A DNA stretch of 11,129 bases from Actinobacteria bacterium UBA5975 (GTDB lineage Bacteria > Actinomycetota > Actinomycetes > Nanopelagicales > Nanopelagicaceae). Positions 940-11,129 of the stretch are shown in pieces (within the stretch, counting starts at the first letter, position 1; every line of letters begins with the position of its first letter). The translations under genes were made by a program, and so were the position numbers. Location of the stretch: contig DJBN01000103.1 of NCBI GenBank assembly GCA_002430075.1, forward strand, positions 1,850-12,978, read 5' to 3'. The notes beneath the pieces were generated by a model, which saw only the letters and a list, made by a program, of their open reading frames with translations, did not search any database and had not been told where the DNA came from.

Positions 940-1335
940 GTGATGAGCGCAAATATTGATTGGGATTCAATCCACACCCTTGCAAAAGCGGCCATGCTGA
1001 AGGCATATGCCCCTTACTCCAAATTCCCAGTAGGTGTCGCCGCACTGGTTGACGATGGACGATTAATCAGTGGCGCGAATGTAGAGAATGCCAGTTACGG
1101 CATTGGCCTTTGCGCTGAATGTTCTCTCGTTAGTGCGCTAACTATGTCTGGCGGTGGTCGGCTAGTTGCCATTGTCTGCGTAGATGCCGATGGCAATTTC
1201 CTCGCTCCATGTGGACGTTGCCGCCAATTGATTTTCGAGCATGGCGGAAGCGATGCTCTTTTAATGACGCCTGATGGCCCAGAGAAAATGAGCGCAATGC
1301 TTCCTTGGGCTTTTGGCCCGGAGAATTTGCAATAA
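940..1335 (+). CDS. cdd: Cytidine deaminase
   Basis: Hydrolytic deamination of cytidine and deoxycytidine to uridine and deoxyuridine, in the cytosol. The 131-residue product is the short, single-domain form that usually makes homotetramers. The key residues are all present: substrate-binding N-V-E (47-49), zinc ligand Cys58 and catalytic Glu60 in C-A-E, and zinc ligands Cys91 and Cys94 in P-C-G-R-C-R-Q. The frame opens with GTG (940) directly followed by ATG (943). The ATG is the better start because it sits 6 bases after the TAGACT -10 box and gives M-S-A-N-I-D-W; the coordinates here include the GTG. It is the first gene of a four-gene operon and its TAA is directly followed by the ATG of the adenosine deaminase. 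The uridine it makes could go to the phosphorylases or hydrolases elsewhere in the window. Confidence 0.96.
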   Translation: MMSANIDWDSIHTLAKAAMLKAYAPYSKFPVGVAALVDDGRLISGANVENASYGIGLCAECSLVSALTMSGGGRLVAIVCVDADGNFLAPCGRCRQLIFEHGGSDALLMTPDGPEKMSAMLPWAFGPENLQ

Positions 1336-2433
1336 ATGGCTCTGCAAATTTCTGAAGACCATATTGCTCGTGCACCAAAGGTTCTGCTGCATGATCACCT
1401 TGATGGAGGTCTACGTCCTCAGACAATGATTGAGCATGCGCTTGCCAGTGGGTACACAAAATTGCCAAGCTATGACGCAGTCGAACTAGGGCATTGGTTT
1501 GTAGAGGCATGTAGCTCTGGAACTCTTGAGCTTTATCTTGAGACCTTTGAACACACAATCTCTGTGATGCAGACTCAAGAAGAGATTATTCGAGTTGCAC
1601 GTGAGTGCGTCCTTGATCTTGCAGCAGATGGAGTGCTATATGCGGAAGTCCGTGGTGCACCAGAGCTCTTTACCCGTAAAGGGCTCACTATGGATCAAGT
1701 TATTGAAGCAACAGTTGAAGGATTTTCTCAAGGCACCTCTGAAATTGCGCACTCAGGAAAAAGGATTCGCGTCGAACATATTCTCTGTGCGCTCCGGCAA
1801 AATCATGCGAGTGAAGAGGTGGCTTCAAAGGTTGTTAAATATAAGGGGCGCGGAGTAGTTGGTTTTGATATTGCTGGACCCGAGGCAGGATTTCCACCAA
1901 CTGATCACATAAAAGCTTTTAATTACCTTCAATCTAATGGTGCCCACTACACAATCCACGCAGGAGAGGCATTCGGAGTCGAATCCATATCCCTGGCTGT
2001 CCGTGAATGCAGTGCTGAGCGTATTGGACACGGCATTCGCCTCATCGATGATATTGACTTCTCAAATGGTCAGGCTCGCTTGGGTTCTCTTGCTCAAGAA
2101 ATCCTAGATCGCCAGATATGCCTTGAGATGGCTCCTACCTCTAACCTTCAAACAGGTGGTGCGGCCTCCTACGCAACCCATCAGATTGGGGTGATGAAGA
2201 AACTTGGCTTCAATGTCACGCTTAATACTGATAATCGCCTCATGAGCGCAACTTCTATGATTCGCGAGGTTCGTGAGATAGCCGATGGCTACAACTGGAA
2301 TATCAACGATCTCCACGATATTGCTCGTAATGGTATTTATGGCGCATTTATCTCTCGAGAAGAACAGGATGAAATCTATCAATCCCAGATCAATCCAGTA
2401 TTTAATCAAATCACATCAGAGTTATCCAAGTAA
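1336..2433 (+). CDS. add: Adenosine deaminase
   Basis: A zinc-dependent amidohydrolase that converts (deoxy)adenosine to (deoxy)inosine. In order it shows the metal motif H-D-H-L-D-G-G (His19, His21), G-F-D-I-A-G-P-E (176-183), H-A-G-E (His208 metal ligand, Glu211 catalytic), R-I-G-H-G (His232), E-M-A-P-T-S-N (264-270) and L-N-T-D-N (296-300) with the metal-binding Asp299. The second residue of the usual T-D-D is Asn here; I believe this occurs in other actinobacterial members, but it leaves some doubt over substrate range. The 365 residues fit the family. The ATG follows the cdd stop with no gap, and GGAG at 1320-1323 is a rather distant ribosome binding site, so translational coupling is likely. 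The stop overlaps the P450 start as TAATG. Related enzymes acting on N6-substituted adenines cannot be excluded. Confidence 0.93.
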   Translation: MALQISEDHIARAPKVLLHDHLDGGLRPQTMIEHALASGYTKLPSYDAVELGHWFVEACSSGTLELYLETFEHTISVMQTQEEIIRVARECVLDLAADGVLYAEVRGAPELFTRKGLTMDQVIEATVEGFSQGTSEIAHSGKRIRVEHILCALRQNHASEEVASKVVKYKGRGVVGFDIAGPEAGFPPTDHIKAFNYLQSNGAHYTIHAGEAFGVESISLAVRECSAERIGHGIRLIDDIDFSNGQARLGSLAQEILDRQICLEMAPTSNLQTGGAASYATHQIGVMKKLGFNVTLNTDNRLMSATSMIREVREIADGYNWNINDLHDIARNGIYGAFISREEQDEIYQSQINPVFNQITSELSK

Positions 2434-3611
2434 TGATTGATTTTAAAGATATTCATTTTATTGATAACCCTTACCCTGCACTTAAAGAGCTCAGATCTAT
2501 TGGGAAACCGGTTTGGCATCAAGAGCTCCAACTTTTTCTAGCTGCAAAATACTCAGATGCAAATGATGTTCTTCGCAACAAATCTCTTGGGCGAATATTT
2601 ATTCCTAGGTCTCCTGAAAGTGAATGGTTTGAATATAACTATCTCCATGCCGATTCAATACTCGATAGCGAGCCTCCGAAGCACACACGCCTGCGCTCGC
2701 TGGTAGCAAAGGCATTTAATCGCCAACGTATCGAGGGTCTCCGTCCAGATATTGAGCGTCTCACCCATCAACTTCTCGACAATATTCAAGCTAAAGGAGG
2801 CGAATTTGATGTAATTGCAGATTATGCAGAACCACTCCCGGTCAAAGTTATTGCTGCGCTACTTGGATTTCCAGATAGTGATGAGTACTTGCTTCGCCCT
2901 TGGTCGCAATCCATTGTGAAGATGTATGAGGTCAATCCGACAGAGGCGTATAAAGCTGAGGCAAAGAAAGCCGCGAAAGAGTTTGCAGCTTACATCCATG
3001 ACTTGATGCTAGAACGTTTAGAGAAACCAGGTGATGACCTCATCTCCGAGCTCGCTCAGGTTACTGAGTCAGGAGAAAAGTTATCGACACACGAGCTCAT
3101 TGCAACGTGCGTACTACTACTCAATGCGGGCCACGAGGCGAGCGTAAATGGATTTGGCAATGGAATAGTTGCGGCTTATCAGCACCCCGATCAGTGGAAA
3201 TTACTTCAGAGCCAGGCTGAGACTATTGCTGCAACTGCTGTCGAAGAATTCCTACGCTTTGATGCTCCACTCCACTTCTTTGATCGCACAGCAACCGCTG
3301 ATACGGAAATTGGTGGAGTGGAAATTAAAAAGGGTCAAAAAATAGTTTCGCTCTTGGGTTCTGCAAACCGTGATGAGGATGTCTTTGACAATAGTGACCA
3401 AATGGATCTCACCCGTAATCCCAACCCACATATCGGATTTGGTGCTGGAATTCACTTCTGCCTCGGAGGCCCATTGGCACGATTAGAGATGTCAATCTCA
3501 CTTCCAGAACTTTTTAAACGATTTCCCACTCTCGAATTAACAGGAACTCCAGTTCGTCGTCCAACTTTCTCGCTTAGAGGATATGAATCAGTTATGGCAA
3601 AGGTGAAATAA
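2433..3611 (+). CDS. Cytochrome P450 (soluble, class I bacterial type), substrate unknown
   Basis: A 392-residue haem-thiolate monooxygenase without a membrane anchor. It has the I-helix motif A-G-H-E-A-S (232-237), the K-helix E-x-x-R (Glu272 to Arg275), and the haem loop F-G-A-G-I-H-F-C-L-G-G with the cysteine ligand Cys343. Position 236, where most P450s have the oxygen-activating Thr, is Ala followed by Ser, the same pattern as in the erythromycin P450 EryF (CYP107A1), where a substrate hydroxyl helps proton delivery. The ATG overlaps the adenosine deaminase stop (TAATG), and its own stop overlaps the next start in the same way, so it is embedded in the nucleoside operon. No ferredoxin or reductase is nearby. 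The family call is very firm. A role on a modified nucleoside is inferred from context only; it could also be an unrelated passenger. Confidence 0.95.
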   Translation: MIDFKDIHFIDNPYPALKELRSIGKPVWHQELQLFLAAKYSDANDVLRNKSLGRIFIPRSPESEWFEYNYLHADSILDSEPPKHTRLRSLVAKAFNRQRIEGLRPDIERLTHQLLDNIQAKGGEFDVIADYAEPLPVKVIAALLGFPDSDEYLLRPWSQSIVKMYEVNPTEAYKAEAKKAAKEFAAYIHDLMLERLEKPGDDLISELAQVTESGEKLSTHELIATCVLLLNAGHEASVNGFGNGIVAAYQHPDQWKLLQSQAETIAATAVEEFLRFDAPLHFFDRTATADTEIGGVEIKKGQKIVSLLGSANRDEDVFDNSDQMDLTRNPNPHIGFGAGIHFCLGGPLARLEMSISLPELFKRFPTLELTGTPVRRPTFSLRGYESVMAKVK

Positions 3612-4549
3612 TGACAAAGAAGAACCTAATTCTCGATGTAGATACCGGTATTGATGATGCATTCGCACTTCTCTTTGCAGCTCGACATCCTGAAATCAAT
3701 CTCCTCGGAGTTACCTGTGTCGATGGCAATACAAACCTAAAACAAGTAGTGATCAATACACTCAAAGTCCTTGATGCTGCAGGTGCAGGCGATATCCCTG
3801 TATCAAAAGGTGCAGCCCGTCCACTCATTGATGAGCCACGTTATGCCGAATACATACATGGCAATGATGGGCTTGGAGATTTAGGTACACCACTTTCTAC
3901 CAGAAAGCTCGATTCTCGTCCCGCAGTTGAGCTATTACGTGACCTTATAGAAGGCTCTGCCGAGCCAGTAACTCTCGTACCTTTAGCGCCGCTGACAAAT
4001 ATCGCACTCTTTCTGCGTTCTTATCCAGAGACTGCAGCGAAACTTGAGCGAATTGTCCTTATGGGTGGTTCAGCATCATCGGGAAATGCAACTCCTGCTG
4101 CAGAATTCAATATCTGGCATGATCCTGAAGCTGCTGCAATTGTTTTCAGCAGCGGCATTCCTATCACTATGTATGGTCTAGATGTCTTTATGGAGCCTCG
4201 CGTTACCGCCGCACAAGCTGCAACACTAATCGAAGAGGGTAAGACTTGCTCAGAATTCGCAGGACGCCTTATTGAACATTTCATTAAGCGTATGGGTCAT
4301 GATGTGACATTGGGTGATTACGGAGCAGTTGCTACCGCAATCAGACCCGAACTCTCAACTTTTGAAACCTTCAGAGTTGTTGTCGATACATCTTTTGGCC
4401 CAAGTCGTGGGCAGACGCTCTGTGACCGACGCGCGTGGAAAGATGATGAGCCAGAATCAACACATGCGAAGGCTGCTGATGTAAAAGTTGCTATGCAAGT
4501 AAATGTGCCAGCGATGATTTCATTGTGGCTGGAGACAATCTCTGGTTAA
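3611..4549 (+). CDS. Nucleoside hydrolase 1 (IUNH family, catalytic His replaced by Gly)
   Basis: Inosine-uridine preferring nucleoside hydrolase family: cleaves the N-glycosidic bond to give base and ribose. The N-terminal calcium site D-V-D-T-G-I-D-D (9-16) is intact (Asp11, Asp15, Asp16), as are the G-G-S-A-S and A-E-F-N-I-W regions with Asn167. Near the C-terminus most members have L-H-D-P, with His as likely acid and Asp as calcium ligand. This protein has L-G-D-Y: Asp236 is kept but the His position is Gly235. Purine-specific IAG-type hydrolases also lack this His but have Trp there, so the substrate cannot be read directly. The full 312 residues fit the family. AAAGGTG at 3599-3605 is a good ribosome binding site, and the ATG overlaps the P450 stop (TAATG). 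Its TAA overlaps tail-to-tail with the opposing ALDH-like gene. Confidence 0.92.
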   Translation: MTKKNLILDVDTGIDDAFALLFAARHPEINLLGVTCVDGNTNLKQVVINTLKVLDAAGAGDIPVSKGAARPLIDEPRYAEYIHGNDGLGDLGTPLSTRKLDSRPAVELLRDLIEGSAEPVTLVPLAPLTNIALFLRSYPETAAKLERIVLMGGSASSGNATPAAEFNIWHDPEAAAIVFSSGIPITMYGLDVFMEPRVTAAQAATLIEEGKTCSEFAGRLIEHFIKRMGHDVTLGDYGAVATAIRPELSTFETFRVVVDTSFGPSRGQTLCDRRAWKDDEPESTHAKAADVKVAMQVNVPAMISLWLETISG

Positions 4550-5400
4550 ACCCCGATTGGGTGCCAGACCGTCTTATTCTCCATAAATGCAAGAACTCGC
4601 GCAGGGGATTGACTCTCCTTAAATCTGAAAATTCGCTTGAGATTATCCGCACCTGCTACACGTAGATTCTTCTCTTGCGACGCAGTAAGACCAGATGCAT
4701 CGACCCCATCTATATCCATGTGAGAGCCAACCCAAGGAGCAAGTTCAGCGCTGGAACCGGTAAGAATATTGACGACTCCCCTTGGGACATCGCTAGTGCC
4801 GATAACCTCGCTCAAGGTGATTGCTGGAAGCGGATACTTTTCACTGGCAATGGCAATCAGGGTATTTCCACCAGCAAGTACAGGTGCAATTGCTTGCACG
4901 AGACCAAGAAGAGATGGCTTAGTCGGCGCAAAAGTTGCAACTACGCCGAGAGATTCTGGAATTGTAAAGTTATAGAAAGAGCCTGAAACCGCATTGGTAG
5001 AACCGTAAATTGCACCAATCTTGTCGCACCAACCTGAGTACCAAACCCAGAGATCGACAGCATCTTCAACCTGTTTCTTAGCCGCAGTTTGTGTCACTCC
5101 CTCTAGAGCGACAATCTCATCTACAAACTGACTTGTGCGCCCTTCCATCATTTCAGCGATGCGATAGAGAATTTGGCCACGGTTAAATGCAGTCGCACTA
5201 CCCCAGCCATCCTGTGCCGCACGCGCTGCCACAACGGAATCGCGAAGATCTTTCCGTGAAGCCAGCGACGGATTGGCAATGAACAATCCTTCGGAGTTCT
5301 TGACCTCATAAGTTCGGCCAGACTCACTCCGCGGAAACGCTCCGCCGATAAATAACTTATAAGTCTTCTTCACATCAAGCCGTGGTGATGAATTTGCCAT
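4546..5400 (-). CDS. ALDH-fold protein without catalytic domain (ALDH16 C-terminal-domain-like)
   Basis: This 284-residue protein matches the N-terminal, NAD-binding part of aldehyde dehydrogenases (Y-K-L-F-I-G-G-A-F near 14-22, G-V-V-N-I-L-T-G, I-A-P-V-L-A-G-G-N-T). It has no E-L-G-G-K segment and no Cys motif, so the catalytic domain is absent. The P-W-N and V-L-K-P motifs of active enzymes read P-T-K and I-A-S-E here. It ends in K-T-V-W-H-P-I-G. This is what the C-terminal pseudo-domain of two-domain ALDH16 proteins looks like, so I read it as a natural subunit and not a broken gene; there is also no room for a lost 3' part, because the stop is 4 bases inside the converging gene. The strong site AAGGGAG (5414-5408) and the TAATG overlap with the catalytic ALDH upstream imply coupled translation and a heteromeric complex. 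Confidence 0.85.
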   Translation of the reverse strand: MANSSPRLDVKKTYKLFIGGAFPRSESGRTYEVKNSEGLFIANPSLASRKDLRDSVVAARAAQDGWGSATAFNRGQILYRIAEMMEGRTSQFVDEIVALEGVTQTAAKKQVEDAVDLWVWYSGWCDKIGAIYGSTNAVSGSFYNFTIPESLGVVATFAPTKPSLLGLVQAIAPVLAGGNTLIAIASEKYPLPAITLSEVIGTSDVPRGVVNILTGSSAELAPWVGSHMDIDGVDASGLTASQEKNLRVAGADNLKRIFRFKESQSPARVLAFMENKTVWHPIGV

Positions 5401-6839
5401 TACTTTGCTCCCTTCAAATATGCTGAGAGCCCGTGACGTCCGCCTTCACGGCCCCACCCAGATTCTTTGTAACCACCGAATGGGCTAGCTGGATCAAACT
5501 TATTAAATGTATTGGCCCAAATTACACCTGCGCGGAGATGTTTTGCCGTCCATAAGATACGTGAGCCTTTATCTGTCCAAATTCCTGCAGAGAGGCCATA
5601 AGGGGTGTTGTTTGCCTTCTCAATCGCTTCTTGTGGAGTGCGGAATGAGATGACTGAGAGAACGGGGCCAAAGATTTCTTCGGTTGCAATGCGATGAGCT
5701 TGTGTCACGCCAGTGAAGATTGTTGGTGCGAACCAAAATCCCTTACTTGGAATTACACAATCGGTCGAGAATCGGAGCGCACCTTCTTCATCTCCTGAAT
5801 TAGCTAGTTCGGTAATCTTTGTGAGTTGTTCTCTGGAATTTATTGCGCCGATATCAGTGTTTTTATCAAGTGGATCTCCAAGGCGAATAAGTGCCATCCG
5901 ACGCTTCAGCTTTTCAAGAAGCTCCTCTTGAATATTTTCTTGAACCAGCAGACGAGAACCTGCACAGCATACGTGTCCTTGATTGAAGAAGATTCCACTA
6001 ACTATTCCCTCGACGGTCTCATCAACCGGCGCATCTTCAAAGACTATATTTGCGCCCTTCCCGCCTAGTTCGAGAGTGAGACCCTTTCCGGTGCCGGCAA
6101 CTGATCGTGCAATTAACTTTCCCACATCAGTGGACCCTGTAAATGCAATTTTACTTATATCTGGGTGGTTAACAATTGCCGCACCTGTTGCGCCATCTCC
6201 TGTGACAATATTGACAACACCTGCAGGAAGTTCTGCCTGCTCACAAACTTCTGCAAAGAGCATCGCGGTAAGAGGGGTAGTCTCGGCAGGCTTTAATACA
6301 ACTGTATTTCCAGTTGCAAGCGCCGGAGCGATTTTCCATGCGAGCATGAGTAGGGGAAAGTTCCACGGAATAATTTGACCCACAACCCCATACGGCTTTG
6401 GATTAGTACCTACTCCGGCATGCTCAAGTTTATCTGCCCAGCCTGCATGGTAGAAAAAGTGTGCAGCCGCTAATGGAATATCCACGTCACGAGTTTCGCG
6501 GATCGGCTTTCCGTTATCGAGTGTTTCAAGAACAGCAAACTCACGGGCGCGCTCCTGCATAATGCGAGCGATGCGATAGAGGTACTTACCCCGCTCTGCG
6601 GGAGCCATCTTTGACCAAATTTTTAAACCAGCTTGGGCCGCTTTCACAGCCCTATCAACGTCAGATTTTTCAGCGTATGCAACCTTTGCGAGTACTTCTT
6701 CTGTTGCTGGATTAATGGTGATAAAGCTTTTACCCGACTTAGGAGCGATGAATTTGCCGCCAATATAGAGTTTATAGAGCGAATTAATCTTAACAATTGC
6801 CTTTGACTCTGGTGCGCTGGAATATTCGAATGTCATCAT
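5400..6839 (-). CDS. NAD(P)-dependent aldehyde dehydrogenase (catalytic, ALDH16 N-terminal-domain-like)
   Basis: A complete 479-residue ALDH that oxidises an aldehyde to a carboxylic acid. It shows I-I-P-W-N (Asn160, oxyanion hole), V-L-K-P (Lys183, cofactor binding), F-T-G-S (233-236), L-E-L-G-G-K (Glu257, general base), F-N-Q-G-H-V-C-C-A-G-S-R with the catalytic Cys291, and E-E-I-F-G-P. The usual N-Q-G-Q is N-Q-G-H here. The gene opens with two ATG codons (6839 and 6836), the first overlapping the deoC stop as TAATG, and it closes with a TAATG overlap with the shorter ALDH-like gene. Its position after deoC suggests that the natural substrate is acetaldehyde from deoxyribose breakdown. Together with the 284-residue partner it adds up to about the size of a fused ALDH16. 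Confidence 0.95.
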   Translation of the reverse strand: MMTFEYSSAPESKAIVKINSLYKLYIGGKFIAPKSGKSFITINPATEEVLAKVAYAEKSDVDRAVKAAQAGLKIWSKMAPAERGKYLYRIARIMQERAREFAVLETLDNGKPIRETRDVDIPLAAAHFFYHAGWADKLEHAGVGTNPKPYGVVGQIIPWNFPLLMLAWKIAPALATGNTVVLKPAETTPLTAMLFAEVCEQAELPAGVVNIVTGDGATGAAIVNHPDISKIAFTGSTDVGKLIARSVAGTGKGLTLELGGKGANIVFEDAPVDETVEGIVSGIFFNQGHVCCAGSRLLVQENIQEELLEKLKRRMALIRLGDPLDKNTDIGAINSREQLTKITELANSGDEEGALRFSTDCVIPSKGFWFAPTIFTGVTQAHRIATEEIFGPVLSVISFRTPQEAIEKANNTPYGLSAGIWTDKGSRILWTAKHLRAGVIWANTFNKFDPASPFGGYKESGWGREGGRHGLSAYLKGAK

Positions 6840-7777
6840 TAATCCAATGTTACGTAGTTAGGGCCTTCGTAATGGCCAGAGGTGAGTTTCTTGCGCTGCA
6901 ATAAGAGGTCATTGAGAAGTGCACTTGCGCCGATTCGAAATAGCTCCGGATTGAGCCACTCTTCTCCCGCTGTCTCTTTTACTAGAACGAGCTGCTTGAT
7001 AGCATCTTTTGTCGTTCTAATTCCTCCGGCGGGTTTAACGCCGATGCGTTGCCCCGTCATCTGATAATAATCGCGTACCGCCTCTAGCATCACCAAAACA
7101 ACTGGTGCGGTTGCGGCCGGAGAAATTTTACCTGTGCTGGTCTTGATGAAATCTGCGCCTGCTGCCATTGCCAAGAATGAAGCTTTACGGACATTGTCAT
7201 AGGTAACGAGTTCGCCAGTCTCGAGAATGACCTTGAGGTGGGCTTTCCCCTCACAGAGCGATTTAATGTAAACGATTTCACTATAAACCTTCTCCAGATC
7301 TCCCGAGAGAAATGCTCCACGATCGATTACCATGTCGATTTCGGTGGCGCCATTGGCAATCGCATCTTTAGTATCTCGTTCTTTGACTTCAAGTGAAGCG
7401 CGGCCAGAAGGAAATGCCGTTGAGACTGCCGCAACAGGTATTTGACTTCCACCACTTGCATCAAGATGTTTGCGTGCTACAGAAACCATATCGTTGTACA
7501 CACAGATTGCTCCAACATGTGGAACAGTTGAATCTGTCGAATCTGGGCGAATCGCTTTATTACAAATTGCTTTTACTTTCCCTTTCGTGTCCGCACCTTC
7601 AAGGGTTGTTAAATCGATCATGCTAATCGCCATATCGATTGCCCATCTCTTGCTCGCTGTCTTGATACTCCGAGTTGCTAACATCGCAGCACGTGCATCC
7701 GCACCAACTTGATCGACCGGAGAAAGTGTTCGCAAGAATCCCTTAATAGAAACAAGCGAACCATCGGTGAGAGCCAT
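6839..7777 (-). CDS. deoC: Deoxyribose-phosphate aldolase
   Basis: Class I aldolase that splits 2-deoxyribose-5-phosphate into glyceraldehyde-3-phosphate and acetaldehyde, the last step of deoxynucleoside catabolism. The active-site set is complete: Asp148 in T-E-I-D-M-V, the Schiff-base Lys212 in F-I-K-T-S-T-G-K, and the proton-relay Lys248 in G-V-K-P-A-G-G-I-R-T. At 312 residues it is longer than the E. coli enzyme and carries an N-terminal extension of about 40 residues before the first conserved helix, as in the longer DeoC group. The ATG at 7777 sits 6 bases after a TAAGAT -10 box and has no Shine-Dalgarno, which favours a leaderless message. It is first in a three-gene operon with two ALDH genes, the first joined by a TAATG overlap. 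The phosphopentomutase needed upstream in the pathway is not in the window. Confidence 0.96.
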   Translation of the reverse strand: MALTDGSLVSIKGFLRTLSPVDQVGADARAAMLATRSIKTASKRWAIDMAISMIDLTTLEGADTKGKVKAICNKAIRPDSTDSTVPHVGAICVYNDMVSVARKHLDASGGSQIPVAAVSTAFPSGRASLEVKERDTKDAIANGATEIDMVIDRGAFLSGDLEKVYSEIVYIKSLCEGKAHLKVILETGELVTYDNVRKASFLAMAAGADFIKTSTGKISPAATAPVVLVMLEAVRDYYQMTGQRIGVKPAGGIRTTKDAIKQLVLVKETAGEEWLNPELFRIGASALLNDLLLQRKKLTSGHYEGPNYVTLD

Positions 7778-7838: not shown

Positions 7839-8777
7839 ATGAAGCCAACTCCAATAGTTCTTGACTGTGACCCAGGCCATGATGATGCACTCGCAATGAT
7901 TCTGGCTGCATATAATCCCCATATCAATCTCCTGGCCATTACTACGGTATCTGGCAACGGAATAATTGCAAAGGTTACTGAAAACGCACTTCGTATCTGT
8001 GCCCTGGCGAAAATTAACGTCCCAGTTGCAAAGGGATCAGGTAATGCAATTCTTGGTTACATCGAGGCCGCAACCGATATTCATGGTGAAACCGCTCTCG
8101 ATGGCGCACCTCTCCCAGAACCAACTTTTGCTTTGGAGAAAATTTCTGGAGTTGATTTAATTGCCAAAGTAGTACGTGAACACCCTGAAAAGGTAACTCT
8201 TGTTGCAACCGGCCCGCTTACCAACATAGCTCTATTTCTCAAGCTGTATCCAGAATTGCGGTCGAATATTGCAGAGATCGTCTTTATGGGTGGGAGTGCC
8301 TCACGTGGAAACCGCACCCCTTATGCAGAGTTCAATATATGGATGGATCCCGAAGCCGCTGATGTTGTGGTGAAATCTGGAATTCCATTAACAATGTGCG
8401 GTCTTGATGTCACGCACCAAGCCCTAGTAACTCAAGCAATCTTCTCTAAGCTTGAGGCGATGGGCACGGGGCTCTCCAAGACCGTTATCGGTCTTCTTAA
8501 ATTCTTTGCATCTACTTATAGCAATGTCTTTGAAATGCCCGATCCCCCACTTCACGATCCTGTTGCTGTCGCGCTTCTCATTGATCGTTCAGTTGTAAAG
8601 ACTCGACTCTCAAATGTTGAAATAGAACTTAACGGAAAATTTACTCGTGGTGCAACCGTTGTAGATATCTACAATCGTAGCGGGGGCGTTACAAATGTAG
8701 AGGTTGCGCTCGAACTTGATTTTGAGAAGTTCTGGAAAATGATGCTCGATGCAGTTGAGGCTGCTGGAAAGGCTTAA
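7839..8777 (+). CDS. Nucleoside hydrolase 2 (IUNH family, complete active site)
   Basis: Full-length (312 residues) inosine-uridine preferring nucleoside hydrolase with every usual motif. The calcium site is D-C-D-P-G-H-D-D (9-16: Asp11, Asp15, Asp16). Asn166 sits in A-E-F-N-I-W. The C-terminal P-L-H-D-P carries His239 and Asp240, the pair found in active base-releasing members. The C-terminal G-K-F-T-R-G-A-T-V-V-D segment also fits. It should release base and ribose from ribonucleosides; the exact preference cannot be read from sequence. It stands alone as a transcription unit, 61 bases from and divergent to deoC, with a leaderless-type promoter. Its TAA overlaps the stop of the opposing uridine phosphorylase gene by 4 bases (TTAA), leaving no space for a terminator. 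Confidence 0.95.
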   Translation: MKPTPIVLDCDPGHDDALAMILAAYNPHINLLAITTVSGNGIIAKVTENALRICALAKINVPVAKGSGNAILGYIEAATDIHGETALDGAPLPEPTFALEKISGVDLIAKVVREHPEKVTLVATGPLTNIALFLKLYPELRSNIAEIVFMGGSASRGNRTPYAEFNIWMDPEAADVVVKSGIPLTMCGLDVTHQALVTQAIFSKLEAMGTGLSKTVIGLLKFFASTYSNVFEMPDPPLHDPVAVALLIDRSVVKTRLSNVEIELNGKFTRGATVVDIYNRSGGVTNVEVALELDFEKFWKMMLDAVEAAGKA

Positions 8778-9526
8778 TCGACTGCTCGACCGTTTGCCTT
8801 GTCTTCGGCGATAATTTCTCGAAGTGAATCGATAGAAGTCTTCAAGAGCAAGTCCAAAGGTGGCATTGGATCTTTCGCATGGACAGCCATAATTCCACCA
8901 GCACGCACTCGTAACATTGAAGCAATAACGAAGATTGCCGCGGCCTCCATCTCGGAGCAGATTGCGCCACCGATTTCCCACGCCTTCCAGCGATTAATTA
9001 AATCTGCTGCTACACCCATGCGTTCTGGTTCGTGTTGACCATAGAAGGAATCTTTTGACTGGGTTATTCCAAGTCGGTAGCGAGCACCATTCTTAATTGC
9101 GGCGCGCTTGATTGCAGCGACAAGATCTACATCGGCAACCGCAGGAAATTCAATAGGCATATAGTGCTTCGAAGTGCCCTCATCACGGATTGCAGCGGTA
9201 ATAATTGCTAATTCGCCAGAAATGCTATCGGGTTGAATGTGGCCGGATGTTCCTACGCGAATGAAGGTATCTGCACCCACGCGTACTAATTCCTCAAGAG
9301 CTATAGCAGCAGAAGGGCAACCGATACCTGTCGAAGTAACTGAAACTTTAACGCCATCGAGATATCCTGTATATGTGTTGTATTCACGATTGCTCGCGAC
9401 ATGAACTGGGTTGTCAAAGAGTTCTGCAATAGGTTCACATCGCCCAGGATCCCCCGGTAGCAATACGTATTTTCCAACATCACCCTTCTTCAGTTGAAGG
9501 TGGTACTGCTTCTCATCATTAAGCAT
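8774..9526 (-). CDS. udp: Uridine phosphorylase-type nucleoside phosphorylase, copy A
   Basis: NP-I family enzyme: (deoxy)uridine plus phosphate gives uracil and (deoxy)ribose-1-phosphate. The 250 residues carry G-D-P-G-R (25-29), N-R-E (Arg47), I-R-V-G-T-S-G (Arg90, Thr93) for phosphate binding, and S-E-M-E (181-184) for the ribose. The base-recognition loop F-Y-G-Q-H-E-P-E keeps the Gln (Gln154) but has Glu where the E. coli enzyme has Arg168; I recall this F-Y-G-Q-H form from Gram-positive uridine phosphorylases. Its start overlaps the end of copy B by 8 bases and is set by a strong AAGGAG site (minus strand, 9538-9533) 6 bases before the ATG. It is the last gene of a minus-strand operon. 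Confidence 0.92.
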   Translation of the reverse strand: MLNDEKQYHLQLKKGDVGKYVLLPGDPGRCEPIAELFDNPVHVASNREYNTYTGYLDGVKVSVTSTGIGCPSAAIALEELVRVGADTFIRVGTSGHIQPDSISGELAIITAAIRDEGTSKHYMPIEFPAVADVDLVAAIKRAAIKNGARYRLGITQSKDSFYGQHEPERMGVAADLINRWKAWEIGGAICSEMEAAAIFVIASMLRVRAGGIMAVHAKDPMPPLDLLLKTSIDSLREIIAEDKANGRAVD

Positions 9527-10250
9527 TCTGATCTCCTTTTATCAATTCACGAATTGCCAAAACTGCAGTTTCTATAAGCGGTTCCAGTGAACCCAGCTCA
9601 CCTTCTCCATGCATCACCATAATGCCACCTGCCCTAACTCTGAGTATGGATGCGAGAACGAACAGAGTTGATACCTCCATCTCGGAGCAAATAGCTCCAC
9701 CGATCTCCCATGCCCGCCAGCGTTCGAGGAGATCATGAGTTACACCAGAGTGCTCGGGTTCCACCTCACCGTAGTAGGAGTCTTTAGATTGAGAGAATCC
9801 AACCTTAAAAGGAAGGCTCTTGGCTGCTGCCGCTTTTCGGAGAGCCTGAATAACTTCAAGGTCTGCAACAGCTGGAAATTCAATAGGCATGTAATGGCTG
9901 GATGTTCCCTCATCACGAATTGCACCAGAGACTATTGCAAGTTCCCCCGATTGCGTACCCGGCTGAATCGAACCTGATGTTCCTACCCGAATAAATGTCC
10001 TCGCTCCAACTCGAACCAACTCCTCCATCGCAATTGCAGAGGAAGGGCATCCGATTCCTGTTGAAGTTACTGAGACTTTTACTCCATCAAGGTAGCCTGT
10101 AAATGTTACGTATTCACGGTTAGTGGCGATGTGTTGGGCATTATCAAAGTGACGAGCGATTACCTCTGCACGCCCAGGATCTCCCGGCAGTAATACATAC
10201 TCTCCTACATCTCCGGGAAGAAGATGTAAGTGGTGCTGCTTCCCCGTCAT
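9519..10250 (-). CDS. Uridine phosphorylase-type nucleoside phosphorylase, copy B (variant base pocket)
   Basis: A 243-residue tandem paralogue of the next gene, clearly alike over its whole length. Phosphate-binding residues are kept: G-D-P-G-R (23-27), N-R-E (Arg45), I-R-V-G-T-S-G (Arg88, Thr91), and S-E-M-E for the ribose. In the base-recognition loop, however, it reads Y-Y-G-E-V-E-P-E, with Glu152 in place of the Gln that binds uracil, and S-E-M-E-V-S-T in place of A-A-A. That suggests a different base preference from copy A, such as another pyrimidine or a purine; this is inference. The ATG overlaps the stop of nucleoside hydrolase 3 (ATGA, 4 bases), so translation is likely coupled, with only a poor GAGAGAG-like site before it. 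Confidence 0.9.
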   Translation of the reverse strand: MTGKQHHLHLLPGDVGEYVLLPGDPGRAEVIARHFDNAQHIATNREYVTFTGYLDGVKVSVTSTGIGCPSSAIAMEELVRVGARTFIRVGTSGSIQPGTQSGELAIVSGAIRDEGTSSHYMPIEFPAVADLEVIQALRKAAAAKSLPFKVGFSQSKDSYYGEVEPEHSGVTHDLLERWRAWEIGGAICSEMEVSTLFVLASILRVRAGGIMVMHGEGELGSLEPLIETAVLAIRELIKGDQNA

Positions 10251-11129
10251 ATTAATTTCACTCTCTCAATAAAAAAATCCATAAATCCATCGACATCTAC
10301 TTCCATAGCAACCTTTGCATTTGGTGCATTTCCGGTAGCCGAAAAATGGTCGGCTGAAATCTTTGCAGTTGTGAATTCACCGTGGAGTTCAATATCAAGA
10401 TAATAATCACGAAAAGTCACAAGTTTTGGATTAACCAATATTGCGGCCGCTAAAGGATCATTAATGGCGCACCCCTGAATACCCTGATACTCCGCATGAA
10501 ACTCCATATAAAAGGCTGTGGAGCGTTCAATAAAGTCATGGATTTCAGCCTTGGAGCCTCTCAGTCTTTCAACGTGCGCTTTCGTGAAGAGACATTTATA
10601 TGTGACATCTAGGGGAATAATTGTGAGATCTATTCCAGAACGTAGGAGTATATCGAACGCTTCAGGATCACAAAAAACGTTGTACTCAGATGATGGTGTT
10701 GCATTCCCAGGATGATGAATTGTTCCTGCCATTGAAACAACTCTCTTAATTTTCTTTCGCAGTGACGGATCGATAAGAAGTGCAAGCGCAAGATTAGTGA
10801 CCGGACCGATACAAAGAATTGTGATTTCACCAGGATTTGCATTCACAATTTTGATAATGAGATTGGCTGCCTTACCTTCAATCGCCTTCAAGGTTGGTGT
10901 GGGCAATATTGCATAGCCAAGACCAGTATCTCCATGCGTTTCCTCAGCTATAGAGAGTGACCTCACAAGTGGTTCGTGTGCACCTTCAGCAACAGGGATA
11001 TTCTGCATTCCGAGTAATTCGACCAGTTTGAGAGCATTTACCGTGCACTTTTGAACAGTTGTATTTCCGTGAGTGGTGGTGATCGCCTGTAAAGAAATTT
11101 CAGGCATTGCTTTGAGAAGAATTAGTGCT
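10247..11129 (-). CDS. Nucleoside hydrolase 3 (IUNH family, His-to-Asn variant; 5' end outside window)
   Basis: The frame is open to the right edge. The codons before the Met at 11107 read A-L-I-L-L-K-A, continuing the family's usual helix before P-E-I-S-L, so the true start and the N-terminal calcium motif D-x-D-x-G-x-D-D lie beyond the window. About 293 residues are visible. H-G-N, the A-E-E-T-H-G-D region, G-P-V-T-N-L-A-L and S-S-E-Y-N-V-F-C-D-P-E identify the family. In the C-terminal motif the usual H-D-P is N-D-P (A-I-N-D-P-L-A), so the catalytic-type His is Asn while the calcium Asp is kept. Y replaces F in the usual A-E-F-N. It heads the visible part of an operon with two uridine phosphorylase-type genes and overlaps the first by ATGA. 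Confidence 0.9.
   Translation of the reverse strand, partial: ALILLKAMPEISLQAITTTHGNTTVQKCTVNALKLVELLGMQNIPVAEGAHEPLVRSLSIAEETHGDTGLGYAILPTPTLKAIEGKAANLIIKIVNANPGEITILCIGPVTNLALALLIDPSLRKKIKRVVSMAGTIHHPGNATPSSEYNVFCDPEAFDILLRSGIDLTIIPLDVTYKCLFTKAHVERLRGSKAEIHDFIERSTAFYMEFHAEYQGIQGCAINDPLAAAILVNPKLVTFRDYYLDIELHGEFTTAKISADHFSATGNAPNAKVAMEVDVDGFMDFFIERVKLI

Follow-up and report, generated by a model that had tools for sequence, protein, structure and literature searches.

A CYP107-family cytochrome P450 in a removable nucleoside-salvage cassette of freshwater actinobacteria may oxidize modified nucleosides

We propose that a cytochrome P450 encoded by Actinobacteria bacterium UBA5975 (Nanopelagicales, Nanopelagicaceae) probably has a modified nucleoside of some kind as its substrate and, more tentatively, that this CYP107-family enzyme, whose gene lies in a removable cassette, oxidizes an imported modified nucleoside, with the demethylation of 2'-O-methylribonucleosides as the leading candidate reaction. 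The gene is found in an 11,129-nucleotide stretch of contig DJBN01000103.1, referred to below as the window. This 11.1-kb window is a nucleoside-salvage island with the order cdd, add, P450, and NH1 (a nucleoside hydrolase) on the plus strand, then ALDHb, ALDHa (both aldehyde dehydrogenase-type), and deoC on the minus strand, followed by NH2, UPb, UPa, and NH3. The original prediction, made from the DNA letters, held that the P450 is joined by TAATG overlaps to adenosine deaminase on one side and to a nucleoside hydrolase on the other, and both overlaps (at 2433 and 3611) were confirmed. The features on which the argument turns are the following:

1336–2433, plus strand: add, adenosine deaminase (above the cut-off of NF006847; open reading frame table), the stop of which overlaps the P450 start (TAATG)
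2433–3611, plus strand: CYP107-family cytochrome P450 of 392 amino acids (PF00067; AlphaFold2; closest solved structure 8yhn)
3138–3140, plus strand: GCG codon of Ala236 in the I helix, at the place of the usual catalytic Thr (sequence; family alignment)
3459–3461, plus strand: TGC codon of the heme-ligand Cys343 (sequence; invariant alignment column)
3611–4549, plus strand: NH1, an atypical nucleoside hydrolase of the inosine-uridine type (PF01156), the start of which overlaps the P450 stop (TAATG)
4546–5400, minus strand: ALDHb, a short aldehyde-dehydrogenase-like gene at the cassette border (partial PF00171), adjoining add in cassette-free genomes

The P450 gene lies in a removable cassette

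Orthologs of the P450, at approximately 60 to 90% identity, are present in 90 of 296 genomes of the order Nanopelagicales, so the observation is not a one-genome oddity and the restriction of the P450 to this genome, which the original prediction had named as a fatal outcome, is clearly false. The set of 90 was read by hand at about 60% identity or more and includes the fragments in genomes G053, G133, G213, and G251, while fragments with lower scores may be missed. Paralogs within the order reach at most 38% identity and 221 bits, and between them and the orthologs there are only short ortholog fragments. Gene order, the check that the original prediction had suggested, was read from the loci of 60 of the 90 genomes and is conserved: add lies directly upstream of the P450 in 53 of the 60, with one locus ending at that point and six differing, and on the downstream side NH1 is the next gene in 12 and one gene further on in 32, lies farther away in three, and is replaced as the next gene by ALDHb in six, with three contig ends and four loci that have none of these. 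The intervening gene, as tested in one locus, lies on the opposite strand and is of the PfkB type and ribokinase-like, scoring 297.9 bits against the TIGR02152 cut-off of 299.65; in the window the P450 and NH1 are joined directly.

The loci that have no P450 are particularly informative in this respect. In 16 of 17 such loci, chosen by hand among the 206 genomes without an ortholog, add and ALDHb are separated by no more than 9 bp, and in the remaining one by 595 bp. Where the cassette is present, add and ALDHb are mostly about 1.2 kb apart if it consists of the P450, 2.1 kb if NH1 is included as well, and 3.0 kb if the ribokinase also belongs to it. This list of cassette-bearing loci comprises 61 entries, with some genomes counted twice, and has a few outliers: in L078 and L080 add is located elsewhere, in L044 and L161 the gap is 3.65 kb, in L052 it is 2.09 kb although NH1 is missing, and L147 and L181 are from outside the Nanopelagicales. 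Since the flanking genes are closed up in the P450-less loci, the P450, with or without the ribokinase and NH1, constitutes a removable cassette, a defined insertion or excision unit between the two otherwise adjacent genes add and ALDHb.

The P450 co-occurs with a hydrolase and tracks an importer type

Our comparison shows that the P450 and NH1 are for the most part present or absent together and that the P450 tracks one type of PnrA-like importer. NH1 is present in 75 of the 296 genomes and the P450 in 74 of these 75 (Fisher p = 1.4e-52), the only genome with NH1 in which no P450 was found being G109, represented by locus L265, a short contig that stands outside the 17 P450-less loci above. 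Within the genus of the window, 60 genomes have both genes, three have the P450 only, none has NH1 only, and 72 have neither, while add (242 of 296) and deoC (229 of 296) are general in the order. In 16 of the 90 P450 genomes NH1 was not found.

Two types of PnrA-like importer occur at the operon head, and they track the presence and absence of the P450 cassette. A nupC more than 60% identical to that of locus L032 is encoded in 30 of 30 P450 loci compared with 0 of 11 P450-less loci, counts that leave aside the loci with no detectable nupC (21 of 51 and 6 of 17, respectively), and across the genus the close BmpA type is present in 42 of 63 genomes with the P450 vs 3 of 72 without it. BmpA itself belongs to PF02608, is PnrA-like, and has among its solved relatives the lipoproteins Lbp and TmpC. 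On a tree of ALDHa and deoC from 68 loci the P450 state requires six changes, which yield three independent pairs on well-supported branches; in these the importer changes along with the P450 in all three and NH1 in 2.7 of the three on average (sign test p = 0.25).

The hydrolase of the cassette is itself unusual. The roles of residues in these enzymes we take to be as in solved hydrolases, with Asp residues binding metal, Asn and Glu binding ribose, and a His protonating the leaving base. The Asp metal ligands and the ribose-binding Asn and Glu of the inosine-uridine type are kept in 53 of 53 NH1 sequences, a set that holds some genomes twice. In contrast, the position of His239 of NH2 is occupied by Gly in 53 of 53 NH1 sequences, by His in 21 of 21 NH2 sequences, and by Asn in 18 of 18 NH3 sequences, and the Pro next to that His in NH2 is Tyr in 48 of the NH1 sequences. 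With the presumed base protonator replaced by Gly, NH1 probably acts on another base or leaving group, as judged from these residues.

A conserved CYP107-family enzyme

The protein is a clear member of the P450 superfamily, scoring 93.9 bits with PF00067 (cut-off 22.8) and having the heme-Cys motif and ExxR, and it is the sole P450 found in the host genome (1.22 Mb, 83% complete). In an alignment of the window protein with 73 of 75 family representatives (L163 and L175 were left out), C343 and the E272 and R275 of ExxR are invariant across the 74 sequences. The I-helix motif is LLNAGHEAS, in which Ala236 stands where many P450s carry Thr. The original prediction had likened this to EryF, which we take to have Ala at the same position, and the likeness holds; as Ala is found in all 74 sequences, however, the replacement is a trait of the family rather than a local change. 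W157, S158, M164, Y165, E166, F283, and R285 are near-invariant and lie in parts of the protein that in P450s usually form the wall of the pocket, while the N231 column contains Asn in 65 and Met in nine of the 74. The substrate-recognition regions taken as blocks are not conserved above random blocks (921 of 5000 were equally high), and hence only single positions are quoted here.

The AlphaFold2 model has a mean predicted local distance difference test score (pLDDT) of 95.3, and its nearest solved structure is 8yhn, CYP107P2 of Streptomyces avermitilis (TM 0.95), at 42–44% identity over 385–401 positions; the rows past CYP107P2 form a broad list of P450s and are not read as indicating function. 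In P450 nomenclature, identity above approximately 40% defines a family and above approximately 55% a subfamily. The window enzyme is therefore placed in CYP107 but falls short of CYP107P as measured against CYP107P2, the sole named CYP107P compared. CYP107U1, at first a candidate for the Streptomyces relative, was dropped once 8yhn had been named as CYP107P2.

Linkage to nucleoside genes recurs beyond the order

The P450 family spans the class at approximately 42–60% identity and is set off from the next P450s by a drop in score from about 300 to 264 bits. Whole or partial nup-cdd-deoA-add operons surround the P450 in two Aeromicrobium records and in records from the Nocardioidaceae, Jatrophihabitans, Sporichthyaceae, and Pseudonocardiales, and in a Chloroflexi metagenome-assembled genome a family member lies beside bmpA-nupABC. 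In Aquiluna-type genomes the P450 is near genes of the Indigoidine_A family, which we take to be PsuG-like and to serve in pseudouridine breakdown. Three Aquiluna-type loci (L162, L166, and L201) have a directly upstream gene that overlaps the P450 start in every case; the one in L162 encodes a nitroreductase-family protein and is preceded immediately by a rhodopsin gene.

When a P450 is termed linked if at least two nucleoside genes lie within 8 kb of it, 33 of the 82 rows of the P450 tree are linked, 48 are not, and one is too short, and the label undergoes at least nine changes on the tree, seven of which are forced by starred branches. Linkage to nucleoside genes is recurrent but far from universal. 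Near the P450 of 21 loci labelled Streptomyces there is no nucleoside gene of the reference set, purA being nearby in 12 of them, and panC is near the P450 in Terrabacter, Humibacillus, and Janibacter melonis. Clusters of neighboring open reading frames from high-GC genomes contained many antisense artefacts and were not used. The original prediction that the P450 is functionally tied to nucleoside breakdown is borne out by the conserved order, the co-occurrence with NH1, the cassette-free sites, and the nucleoside operons in other actinomycetes and the Chloroflexi genome.

A proposed role in the use of modified nucleosides

It is mainly the cassette data that lead us to consider, with reasonable confidence, that the P450 serves the use of a modified nucleoside, a confidence set slightly lower than it might be because the cargo of the importer is not fixed and because the P450 and NH1 do not share a transcript in every locus. 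The assignment to 2'-O-methylribonucleosides is the less certain step. According to this scheme, 2'-O-methylnucleosides derived from RNA would enter by way of an importer and the P450 would hydroxylate the O-methyl carbon, with a hydroxyl of the substrate possibly replacing the missing I-helix Thr in proton delivery. The resulting hemiacetal would break into formaldehyde and an ordinary nucleoside, which Add, Cdd, the hydrolases, and the phosphorylases would convert to base and ribose, the latter to be recovered by the ribokinase. We favor this substrate since the P450 lies with enzymes for purines as well as for pyrimidines, as fits a modification that is independent of the base, and since the product seems usable by ordinary enzymes in the 16 P450 genomes in which NH1 was not found, as fits an ordinary nucleoside. 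In addition, free 2'-O-methylnucleosides are reported in PMC12709175 to be opened by oxidative demethylation, by the 2-oxoglutarate dioxygenases FJS and PHYHD1. With that precedent, the idea of the original prediction that the P450 might take an alkyl group off a modified nucleoside by oxidation is chemically sensible.

Several observations weigh against this proposal. The intervening ribokinase is on the opposite strand, so the P450 and NH1 are not on one transcript there, and in NH1 it is the base side that is changed with the ribose side intact, which suggests that the base of the substrate, not its sugar, is the unusual part. Among the 16 genomes in which NH1 was not found, some are incomplete. 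The best NCBIfam models for the importer are of a 'putative B6' transporter, all below the cut-off, and do not fix its cargo, and the window's own genome does not have the importer type that tracks the P450 at the threshold used. Kinship among the genomes inflates the Fisher tests and thereby weakens them, with only three independent pairs left (p = 0.25, as above), and the 48 of 81 family rows that are away from nucleoside genes include several with one short flank. As for redox partners, no ferredoxin of the P450 type was found, there being no match to Fer4_15 in the window's genome and none to Fer4_13 in the 15 genomes searched; the three Fer2 matches in the window's genome were not assigned. 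The test for formaldehyde disposal lends no support, as the mycothiol-dependent formaldehyde dehydrogenase TIGR03451 is above cut-off in 0 of 135 genomes, and what has been recorded for CYP107P2 concerns flavonoids and terpenoids. Two candidate markers were set aside. PF07992 is too general to be of help with the redox partners, and a weaker zinc-type alcohol dehydrogenase as formaldehyde sink is enriched but not strict (28 of 63 P450 genomes vs 9 of 72), and so too loose for use, with a line that we set at about 224 bits and just below which lie G205, G239, and G236, all with the P450.

Base-modified nucleosides are a serious rival to the 2'-O-methyl reading, one that we regard as somewhat doubtful. 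Here the P450 would act on a ribonucleoside with a modified base, such as an N6-alkyl adenosine of the isopentenyl type from tRNA, by oxidizing that base, and NH1 would be adapted to the base in its oxidized or modified form. This would accommodate the co-occurrence of NH1 with the P450, the Gly in place of the base-protonating His in a protein that keeps its ribose and metal residues, the position of add as the usual upstream neighbor, and the presumably PsuG-like Indigoidine_A-family genes by the operon in some relatives, but not as readily the P450 genomes in which NH1 was not found, nor the operons of other actinomycetes, in which cdd and deoA are partners of the P450 no less than add is. 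In Rhodococcus fascians, genetic evidence implicates a P450 in hydroxylating isopentenyl-type cytokinins (PMC8234997), whereas Add of Escherichia coli is reported to support growth on N6-methylated purines (PMC13296781), for which an oxygenase would be unneeded.

Two further explanations dispense with nucleosides altogether. It is unlikely that the P450 acts on a housekeeping substrate common to the whole CYP107P-like family and keeps company with nucleoside genes through co-expression only, as in the Nanopelagicales it is present or absent together with NH1 and the importer type, and linkage recurs in distant lineages; in favor of this view are the many family members located elsewhere, for example with panC or purA nearby, and the pocket-region motifs, which are equal in linked and unlinked members and suggest a single substrate for all. 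That the enzyme is an oxidase of xenobiotics or of terpenoids and flavonoids, like the activities reported for its closest solved structure CYP107P2 (low-conversion apigenin hydroxylation and terpenoid binding; PMC9977193 and PMC12566721), is very improbable, as it would be hard to explain why a 1.2-Mb genome keeps a lone P450 exactly between add and a nucleoside hydrolase.

If the P450 does act on modified nucleosides, its presence in primary nucleoside salvage would be unusual, and it would provide a substrate class for the solved CYP107P-like family, for which no natural substrate was found, and a route for acI-type bacteria to use modified nucleosides left by RNA turnover. According to PMC5301498, these bacteria are the most abundant group in the majority of freshwater lakes. 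The P450 likely lets planktonic freshwater bacteria feed on chemically modified nucleosides that are probably beyond the reach of ordinary salvage enzymes. More speculatively, abundant freshwater actinobacteria and many other actinomycetes may carry an O2-dependent branch of salvage in which a P450 strips the 2'-O-methyl group from scavenged RNA nucleosides and passes between genomes as a unit with its own importer, a ribokinase, and a re-tooled hydrolase. No title on a P450 in a nucleoside salvage operon was among the matches listed, which were of CC0, CC BY, and CC BY-SA papers only.

Other genes of the window

The remainder of the salvage island comprises the following genes:

940–1335, plus strand: cdd, cytidine deaminase (ATG at 943, stop at 1335), abutting add (above the cut-off of NCBIfam NF004064)
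5400–6839, minus strand: ALDHa, aldehyde dehydrogenase (PF00171)
6839–7777, minus strand: deoC, deoxyribose-phosphate aldolase (above the cut-off of TIGR00126)
7839–8777, plus strand: NH2, canonical pyrimidine-type nucleoside hydrolase with His239 kept (PF01156; closest solved chain a cytidine/uridine-specific hydrolase)
8774–9526, minus strand: UPb, uridine-phosphorylase-like enzyme (PF01048; just below the cut-off of TIGR01718)
9519–10250, minus strand: UPa, phosphorylase-superfamily enzyme and paralog of UPb (PF01048)
10247–11128, minus strand: NH3, third nucleoside hydrolase, running off the window (RihA-like NCBIfam match below cut-off)

UPa and UPb (8774–10250) are tandem paralogs of the phosphorylase superfamily with overlapping ends. 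ALDHb has 284 amino acids and matches the aldehyde dehydrogenase profile in its initial part only. Many of the examined loci keep it next to a full-length ALDHa, and it is possibly a regulatory or scaffolding partner. Just upstream of the island are genes for a protein with a cytochrome b5-like domain (2–265) and a DCC1-like thiol oxidoreductase (299–688), and a tRNA-Tyr is located at 745–829, the 3' part of which is, by eye, partly repeated upstream near 673–710.

Comparison with known systems

The P450 most similar to that of the window is CYP107P2, which has the same fold, is the closest solved sequence, and also has NAGHEA in its aligned I helix. A clear orthologous relation to some P450 whose substrate is known and unrelated, the other outcome that the original prediction had named as fatal, did not clearly emerge from this comparison but is conceivable. 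The two differ in that the 21 family loci labelled Streptomyces are without reference nucleoside genes nearby and in the flavonoid and terpenoid activities of CYP107P2, substrates that look like screening substrates but are the sole recorded ones that we met with. P450eryF (CYP107A1) is comparable in the Ala at the I-helix Thr position, and the titles of 1z8q and 1jip name A245 mutants, but its substrate is a macrolide and it is only 34–36% identical to the window P450. FJS and PHYHD1 would share the proposed job of demethylating a free nucleoside by oxidation ahead of its salvage, but as 2-oxoglutarate/Fe(II) dioxygenases they belong to another enzyme class and the comparison is one of how they work. 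A myxobacterial sesquiterpene-nucleoside is the subject of PMC7321100.

The nucleoside hydrolases RK9NH, LbNH, and AgNH (PMC6278475 and PMC12709175) are also relevant, and RK9NH lies beside a deoC-like aldolase, with a ribokinase in the cluster of its relatives. These enzymes cleave the 2'-O-methylnucleoside without an oxygenase, in contrast to the route proposed here, and are likened to it by description rather than by sequence. Similarly likened by description are the P450 of the R. fascians fas operon and CYP735A, P450s for which an action on adenosine derivatives is either implied or demonstrated (PMC8234997). They serve cytokinin synthesis rather than salvage, which is where we place the CYP107-family enzyme of the Nanopelagicales.

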